Shown in pieces: positions 29,954-30,592 of a stretch of DNA of 64,000 nucleotides. The number at the start of each line of letters is the position of its first letter. The first letter of the stretch is position 1. The stretch is from positions 4,464,001 through 4,528,000 of the forward strand of contig CM066288.1 in the NCBI GenBank assembly GCA_033816765.1, in the 5' to 3' direction. The notes below the pieces were generated by a model, which did no database searches, had not been told where the DNA came from, and saw only the letters and a program-made list of their open reading frames with translations. The position numbers were made by a program, and so were the translations under genes. This DNA comes from Nothopassalora personata. Its lineage: Eukaryota; Ascomycota; Dothideomycetes; Mycosphaerellales; Mycosphaerellaceae.

Positions 29954-30147
29954 ACAAGAAAGGTCAGCGATACCTTGTCAAGTGGAAAGGATACGACGAA
30001 TCAGAAAATACCTGGGAACCGAGAGAGAACCTCAAGAATTGCCGGGTGCTCCTGATGGAGTACCTCCGACACCAGAAGAAACCCGGAGCGAAGAAGGACC
30101 GTACAACCAGAAATCCGACGACACGTCGTATCCCTGATCGACCATGA
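29947..30147 (+). pseudogene. Out-of-frame chromodomain tail of E1 pol
   Basis: Frame shifted relative to pol by the one-base loss in an A-run. It encodes RYLVKWKGYDESENTWEPR, the core of a chromodomain, then a basic tail to a stop at 30147. In E2 the same region is in frame with integrase. It overlaps the 3' end of the antisense gene by 116 bp, tail to tail. Confidence 0.85.
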
Positions 30148-30592
30148 GCCCCCAGGTGTTAGGAGACAGGTGAAAGTCCAGCGACTCCTGCTGCTCCAGC
30201 TCCGACAAGGCTGCGGACTCCACAGCAATGGCCTCGTCGGCTCTCTGATCCACGAGCTCCATCTGCTTCCGAAGCCGCTCCTCCTTTGCGTATGCAGTGT
30301 TCAGAGTCTCCCGAGCACGCTCTTGAGCCTCGCGGGCCTCCTTAATCTGCCTCTCCAACTTCTTCTTCTCACCGATCAGACGATCGAACTCGGAACGCGA
30401 CACCTTCACGTCACAACGAACGTTGCGACGCACACACTCGTTGCACCGCCCCGACGACACGTGTACCTTGCACACGCGCGAATGCGCTCGACAGTTGGAA
30501 CAAGACCGAACCATTATCTCTCCAAAACTTTCGATCGTTTCTGCTAACTTGAGGCGACGAGAGGTGCTGGATGAAGATGACACCTTTGGCAT
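30032..30592 (-). CDS. Antisense Zn2Cys6-like coiled-coil gene of E1
   Basis: 186 residues, antisense to gag-pol, between pol and the 3' LTR; the ATG is 88 bp from the LTR. The N-terminus is Ser-rich. The cluster CSNCRAHSRVC, eight residues, then CNECVRRNVRC gives C-x2-C-x6-C-x8-C-x2-C-x6-C, within the spacing of the fungal Zn(II)2Cys6 domain. A long charged Glu/Arg/Lys helix follows (about 65-125, likely coiled coil), then an acidic part and SPNTWGLMV, shared with E2 as SPSTWGLIT. No introns are needed. It is not part of the standard Gypsy gene set. Likely a nuclear DNA-binding protein; a role in controlling the element's own LTR is inference. Promoter elements would have to lie in the nearby 3' LTR or the 88-bp gap. 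Confidence 0.8.
   Translation of the reverse strand: MPKVSSSSSTSRRLKLAETIESFGEIMVRSCSNCRAHSRVCKVHVSSGRCNECVRRNVRCDVKVSRSEFDRLIGEKKKLERQIKEAREAQERARETLNTAYAKEERLRKQMELVDQRADEAIAVESAALSELEQQESLDFHLSPNTWGLMVDQGYDVSSDFWLYGPSSLRVSSGVGGTPSGAPGNS

Follow-up and report, generated by a model that had tools for sequence, protein, structure and literature searches.

An antisense gene for a Zn2Cys6-like protein beside the 3' long terminal repeat of a fungal Gypsy retrotransposon, and its association with repeated sites in that repeat

The window, a 64,000-nucleotide stretch of contig CM066288.1 of Nothopassalora personata, contains a full-length Gypsy retrotransposon, E1, which carries an antisense gene for a six-cysteine protein (aORF) between pol and its 3' long terminal repeat (LTR). 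The host's RPA2, a subunit of RNA polymerase I, shares 97% identity with its counterpart in Fulvia fulva, the tomato leaf-mould fungus, and 87% with that of Zasmidium cellare, the next in order; the genome is accordingly placed close to F. fulva. The 5' LTR (positions 23918–24364, plus strand) and 3' LTR (30681–31127, plus) of E1 are the same from end to end, with an identical run of 448 nt from 23918 and 30681 and an LTR proper (TGTT...AACA) of 447 nt. Because the LTRs are identical and the sequence GTCCT abuts both outer ends of the element, its insertion is taken to be recent. The internal region has the expected Ty3/Gypsy domains: gag (24384–26678, plus) encodes a Retrotrans_gag domain and a CCHC zinc knuckle, and the listed frame of pol (26576–29953, plus) encodes protease, reverse transcriptase, RNase H and integrase. 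The chromodomain (29944–30147) lies in another frame than the rest of pol, and since it extends past 29953 to approximately 30147, the pol/chromodomain region and the antisense gene overlap tail to tail by about 115 nt. The polypurine tract AAGAGGGGGATGG (30668–30680, plus), common to several families, precedes the 3' LTR. Each LTR contains a putative core promoter block, AATCTCCTTTGTATTTAGG, at 24120–24138 and 30883–30901 (both plus), which is also found in other gag-pol families.

The aORF occupies 30032–30592 on the minus strand and is made up of 186 codons and a stop. An earlier reading of the sequence alone (the sequence-only reading) had described an intact 186-codon frame opposite gag-pol; the translation is indeed uninterrupted, and mapping of the LTR boundary upheld the 88 nt placed between its ATG and the 3' LTR. 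The six cysteines (C31, C34, C41, C50, C53 and C60) have exactly the C-x2-C-x6-C-x8-C-x2-C-x6-C arrangement reported there, and the long helix said to follow them is predicted by AlphaFold at residues 66–139, in a block with a predicted local distance difference test score of 84–99. The protein is thus composed of a Cys6 domain (residues 31–60), this predicted helix and an acidic, aromatic C terminus. Zn2Cys6 domains have the spacing C-x2-C-x6-C-x5–12-C-x2-C-x6–8-C, a range that includes the E1 protein (2,6,8,2,6). The profile comparison proposed in the sequence-only reading went the other way: against PF00172 the E1 protein scores 7.7 bits (expectation value, E, of 5.3), below the curated cut-off of 21, and for this reason the domain is called Zn2Cys6-like and not a member of the family. 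With Pfam Zn_clus, 6 of 26 diverse members reached E ≤ 1 (best E, 0.23), as did 2 of 22 in a second set (best E, 0.26). Families with a short loop between the second and third cysteines (C2 and C3) have spacings of 2,6,8,2,6–7; in other branches this loop is longer and departs from the Zn2Cys6 range. The six cysteines are the sole invariant residues among 26 chosen diverse aORF proteins. Matches of the E1 model in the PDB are weak, and are to Zn2Cys6–DNA complexes. In all but one of 15 families the last 50 residues carry a charge of −3 to −12 and 3–6 aromatic residues; in the exception, L051, the charge is +1.

A search of the 54.5-Mb host genome gave 859 aORF candidates, of which 150 were scored. 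Fifteen of these 150 matches are open and 100% identical copies of the E1 gene, and relatives at 41–55% identity are open in other element families. The antisense position that the sequence-only reading had proposed to look for in other elements was found occupied by an open frame in 16 families of the host genome, and the gene is not specific to E1: it is one member of a large, exchangeable family that is present in gag-only elements too. The 16 intact families examined (E1, E2, L051–L059, L061, L063, L079, L080 and L091) reduce to 14 once antisense proteins more than 85% identical are merged.

Because the open E1 copies are identical, related families were used in their place to obtain the ratio of nonsynonymous to synonymous divergence (dN/dS). 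In moderately diverged pairs the antisense frame gave 0.11 for L053/L063 (11, 14 and 57 changes at codon positions 1, 2 and 3), 0.11 for L054/L056 (20, 19 and 82), 0.08 for L054/L074 (12, 12 and 69) and 0.20 for L053/L061 (76, 58 and 125). Of the other five frames, four gave values above 1 and the mirror frame, which has synonymous positions in common with the aORF, gave 0.13–0.35; very young pairs, with few changes, gave 0.5–1.1. The aORF is kept by purifying selection in the related families. Homologues are found beyond the host genome, with 36 database proteins in a first search and 64 by profile; these are mostly metagenomic, and the named taxa are Pyricularia, Lithohypha, Cryoendolithus, Dissoconium, Cladosporium and Rostrohypoxylon. 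Selection, invariant cysteines and matches to Zn2Cys6–DNA structures together support the earlier proposal that the element encodes its own predicted DNA-binding protein near the 3' LTR.

Dozens of E1-like copies are decayed, with several TAG and TAA stops each, in a pattern like that of repeat-induced point mutation (RIP). Across the genome, the stops of decayed antisense genes (for example, L016–L030) are nearly all TAG or TAA, which fits C-to-T change directed at CpA. Identical open copies coexist in the host genome with these RIP-like decayed ones.

Each LTR of E1 holds an array of repeated sites, at 23995–24111 in the 5' LTR and at 30758–30874 in the 3' LTR, the latter a likely operator. 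Both arrays contain ten TGMTCT sites and two copies of the 21-bp palindrome TTGATCTGTCGAACAGATCAA, at 24011 and 24075 and at 30774 and 30838, respectively. TGMTCT reaches a density of about 50 per kb in the E1 array; within the element the figure is 1.27 per kb, and elsewhere in the window it is 1.09 per kb. Such arrays lie between the LTR start and the core promoter block and differ among families: TGATCAG/TGCTCAG in L052, L054, L056 and L079; TGCTCTC or TGATCTC in L053, L055, L057, L061 and L063; TGGTCG in L058 and L091; and GCGAC in E2. With 100 approximate dinucleotide shuffles per family as the control, repeated 6-mers in the array region exceeded every shuffle in 11 of 15 families, were matched by two shuffles in L053 and L058 and by five in L061, and showed no excess before the core promoter block in L080.

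Counts of TGMTCT and TGMTCA label 11 of the 15 families, seven as T and four as A. A single column out of 160 in the protein alignment splits the two groups, the fourth residue between cysteines 5 and 6, which is Asn57 in E1; it is Asn in all seven T families (TGMTC-T) and Gly in all four A families (TGMTC-A), and only 4 of 330 relabellings equal the best score of any column. This Asn/Gly rule was fixed before further families were fetched, and all six held-out families below 50% identity follow it. The held-out families are decayed copies and several of their T:A site counts are small: 4:1 and 3:1 (L082/L085), 2:0 (L092) and 2:1 (L093) for Asn, and 2:6 (L083), 0:2 and 0:3 (L087/L095) and 0:5 (L088) for Gly. 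Nearer sisters (L016–L030, L084, L090, L094 and the window copy at 21464) also fit, with the exception of L081, which has Asn and a 3:3 tie.

The same residue emerged when no site definition was used and array 6-mer similarity was compared with residue identity at 152 columns in the 16 families. Residue 57 was the top column (r = 0.66, familywise p = 0.0004; p = 0.0010 without two near-duplicate families), as it was with word lengths of 5 (p = 0.0018, and 0.014 without near-duplicates) and 7 (p = 0.0004 and 0.0016). It ranks first in six of six settings, with familywise p of 0.0004–0.014, and is the sole column to stand out throughout; the next, residue 23, reached p = 0.04 and 0.02 with word lengths of 6 and 7 in the 16 families and 0.30–0.36 without near-duplicates. 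The mean cosine between arrays is 0.297 for the 43 pairs that share residue 57 and 0.075 for the 77 pairs that differ. A post hoc extension of the rule has A or G after TC in the families without Asn (E2, His; L080, Arg; L058 and L091, Gly). The suggestion of the sequence-only reading that the protein regulates its own LTR gains support from this residue of the Cys6 domain, which appears to track the repeated sites.

Ten of the aORF families are gag-only, encoding a Gag of 330 residues that matches Retrotrans_gag and zf-CCHC, and no pol adjoins the antisense gene in any of the ten. In these elements the aORF sits between gag and the 3' LTR. One of them, traced to both ends, is 2.45 kb long, with LTRs identical over 317 nt and CTGTC on either side, and has no pol match. 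All 14 elements examined have one kind of polypurine tract, followed by an LTR that begins TGTTACGG, and because both features are alike in gag-only and gag-pol elements, the two kinds probably share one integration machinery.

Among the 45 pairs of gag-only families, Gag is 94.3–100% identical (mean, 97.6%), in contrast to 24.6–97.1% (mean, 37.7%; at most 64.1% in 43 pairs) for the antisense protein, 61–96% (mean, 84.8%) for the LTR core and 43.5–83.6% (mean, 55.8%) for the LTR stretch before the core. L055 and L061 have Gag identical over 295 residues and antisense proteins that are 34% identical. In 11 gag-only pairs the synonymous divergence (dS) of gag is 0.005–0.034, versus 0.43–2.52 for the antisense gene; among the gag-pol families L052, L057, L062 and L079, five pairs have a pol dS of 0.16–0.24 and an antisense dS of at least 1.43. 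The DNA of E1 is 79–90% identical to that of L052, L057 and L062 until approximately 30039, and then 42–62% identical across the antisense gene. The antisense gene, polypurine tract, LTR start and array form a contiguous 3' block, which differs between elements with near-identical gag or pol. This discordance in synonymous divergence between backbone and antisense gene is the reason for proposing that the block, regulator and array together, appears to be exchanged between backbones as a cassette. Fast evolution of the antisense gene alone would not account for such a rise in its synonymous divergence; exchange of the 3' block would.

We consider it fairly probable that the aORF, as a real and selected antisense gene, encodes a Zn2Cys6-like and probably dimeric protein that binds the array in its own LTR and thereby switches LTR transcription. 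The transcript of the gene would run leftwards from the side of the 3' LTR, and the Cys6 domain of its product may read TGMTC-N half-sites in the array. Two monomers would be joined through the long helix on sites that are palindromic or in tandem, a dimer being suggested by the E1 palindromes and the predicted single-chain model. With the array just upstream of the core promoter block, the 5' LTR copy would govern gag-pol and the 3' LTR copy the leftward promoter of the antisense gene itself, which would close a self-regulating loop. The acidic, aromatic C terminus may serve as an activation domain; this tail, and the presence of many identical open copies side by side, make activation of LTR transcription more likely than repression. 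By exchanging the cassette, an element would come to have a regulator of its own, and families would be kept from cross-regulation. More tentatively, and with slightly less than even confidence, we suggest that the block is an exchangeable immunity or licensing cassette in which Asn57 sets the base after TC, and that pol-less elements retain Gag together with this cassette.

Several observations weigh against so close a pairing of protein and array. Whole-protein identity does not correlate significantly with array similarity (Mantel test, r = 0.10, p = 0.17), and for the Cys6 region p is 0.08–0.11. The independent Asn/Gly contrasts amount to two that are well supported, or three, too few for a sign test, and the permutations ignore the relatedness of the families. 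L057 and L051 share 51% identity and Asn and do not share array words (cosine, 0.09), and the arrays of L055 and L059 are similar despite a protein identity of 36%. The gene adjoins the array, and linkage alone could hold both together.

The protein may instead be a self-repressor that binds the array and lowers LTR transcription, so that residents limit newcomers and exchange is a means of escape. A family-specific protein and array swapped on a constant backbone recall immunity regions, but an acidic, aromatic tail, present in all but one of 15 families, is more suggestive of an activation domain, and many identical open copies side by side do not suggest strong self-limitation, which leaves such a repressor unlikely. 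It is also conceivable that the protein, in the manner of the VANC proteins of Arabidopsis VANDAL transposons, binds the array and strips silent chromatin or DNA methylation, with transcription raised indirectly. According to PMC5735166 and PMC10398659, VANC proteins bind short, fast-diverging tandem motifs that change along with the protein, and the dozens of decayed copies with TAG/TAA stops are as expected where repeats are attacked. The sites described here, however, lie in the LTR directly before the core promoter and not in introns or long non-coding stretches, and we give an anti-silencing role a low probability. Repeated enhancer sites are common in LTRs, and the arrays might bind host transcription factors while the antisense protein acts in, for example, nucleic-acid chaperoning, nuclear entry or target choice, the Asn57 association then reflecting chance and linkage. 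The adjoining positions of gene and array, the two to three independent contrasts and the non-significant Mantel test would fit such an arrangement; it is nevertheless doubtful, as residue 57 is top in all six settings (familywise p = 0.0004–0.014), residues diagnostic of the major clades of the protein tree are not conspicuous, and L058 and L091 have the same rare array on differing LTR cores. That there is no gene, only an accidental open frame or an antisense regulatory RNA with an incidental one, is very improbable: the identical open E1 copies carry no selection signal of their own, but only the antisense frame (the mirror frame aside) has a dN/dS as low as about 0.1, the cysteines are invariant across divergent families, and homologues occur in metagenomes and named ascomycetes.

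Two further antisense genes of this kind lie in the window. That of element E2 (55121–55762, plus) encodes 213 residues with the same Cys6 spacing and His at the position of Asn57, and overlaps tail to tail by 4 nt with the downstream pol frame of E2 (55759–57396, minus). This frame ends in a chromodomain that is in frame with pol, unlike that of E1, for which mutation, sequencing error or recoding may account. GCGAC-type repeated sites occupy approximately 54770–54990 in the 3' LTR of E2. A decayed antisense gene of the Gly type, belonging to a third element, lies at 21464–21883 (plus), a place converted from the genome match, and contains stops. Elsewhere in the genome, L091 has a transfer RNA-like sequence (1836–1910, plus; contig C2 near 4059840) between the end of the chromodomain and the antisense gene, to which ARAGORN assigns the anticodon CTA and whose anticodon arm is irregular by eye. 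A sister family of L061, in a decayed state, is found at C9:5367 and C9:20171, not far from the start of that contig, and on the small contigs C20, C21, C30, C31, C33, C34, C39 and C40. Its copies have the same score and the same stops and are often paired at a spacing of about 15–17 kb; it is perhaps a subtelomeric repeat block.

The window also contains a second kind of Gypsy element (11554–16553, minus; gag 401 residues, pol 1,240), with no Cys6 antisense frame among the listed open reading frames (ORFs) of at least 150 residues. Three long frames of 967, 1,122 and 970 residues (39024–49207, minus) look like another retroelement, with one gag-like and one reverse transcriptase/integrase-like frame among them. 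A 186-codon frame at 8398–8958 (minus), made up of repeated QYHTAVCLV-type peptide units, is probably a tandem repeat rather than a gene.

If the favoured reading is true, LTR retrotransposons bring with them both sequence-specific regulators and the operators that match these, and acquire new specificities when the pairs are swapped, which would explain both the many close families active side by side and the retention of the aORF by pol-less elements. Protein–DNA recognition codes would be readable from dozens of natural pairs within one genome. It would also give a concrete answer to the function of antisense ORFs by the 3' LTR, a question called open in PMC7264820.

The aORF protein resembles the fungal regulators Gal4, LEU3, HAP1, PPR1 and PUT3 in its six-cysteine spacing, basic domain, following coiled coil and acidic tail, and its model weakly matches structures of Zn2Cys6 regulators. 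It differs in being far smaller, encoded by a retrotransposon and below the Pfam cut-off, and in the longer C2–C3 loop of some branches. The first Cys helix of Gal4 makes base contacts, whereas the aORF residue that tracks the DNA sites is in the second. In lambdoid phages, immunity regions consisting of a DNA-binding repressor and its operators are exchanged en bloc on a common backbone; they differ in being prokaryotic and in having known repressors. Among retroviruses, the foamy virus gene for Tas lies ahead of the 3' LTR and its product binds the LTR; HBZ of human T-cell leukaemia virus (HTLV) is antisense, is expressed from the 3' LTR and contains a zipper through which it dimerises. Both are unrelated to the aORF protein and are not carried by gag-only elements, and we know of no exchangeable protein-plus-site cassette for either. 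HBZ is also mentioned in PMC11963269. In the literature that could be reached, which included few subscription papers, no Zn2Cys6 antisense gene or exchangeable regulator–operator cassette was reported in fungal LTR elements.

PMC7264820 and PMC11963269 describe ORFs that lie antisense between pol and the 3' LTR in maize Grande, rice RIRE2 and Silene Retand, and an equivalent, brtn, in the fungal element Boty of Botrytis; these are present in most copies, and nuclear or DNA-binding roles have been proposed for them. PMC7264820 states that clear similarity to other proteins had not been described for them, and further accounts of such ORFs are found in PMC8365987, PMC4227169 and PMC5987419. The aORF is like those of Grande, RIRE2, Retand and Boty in position and orientation, as far as these sources describe them, although the antisense ORF of Retand is given as having a TRP28 domain and not a Cys6 domain. 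VANC proteins and the family-specific short repeated motifs of VANDAL elements change together, according to PMC5735166. The likeness would be that of an element-encoded protein with family-specific repeated motifs of its own, a pattern that the arrays and the residue association described here would fit. VANDALs are DNA transposons, whereas the sites described here lie within LTRs and the gene runs opposite to pol or gag; to our knowledge, VANC proteins have no Cys6 domain. By analogy, the aORF and its array find their nearest parallel in function in VANC with its tandem motifs. The E1 gene itself is a variant of the antisense accessory genes of LTR retrotransposons, with a mechanism that, if confirmed, is as far as we have found new for these elements.
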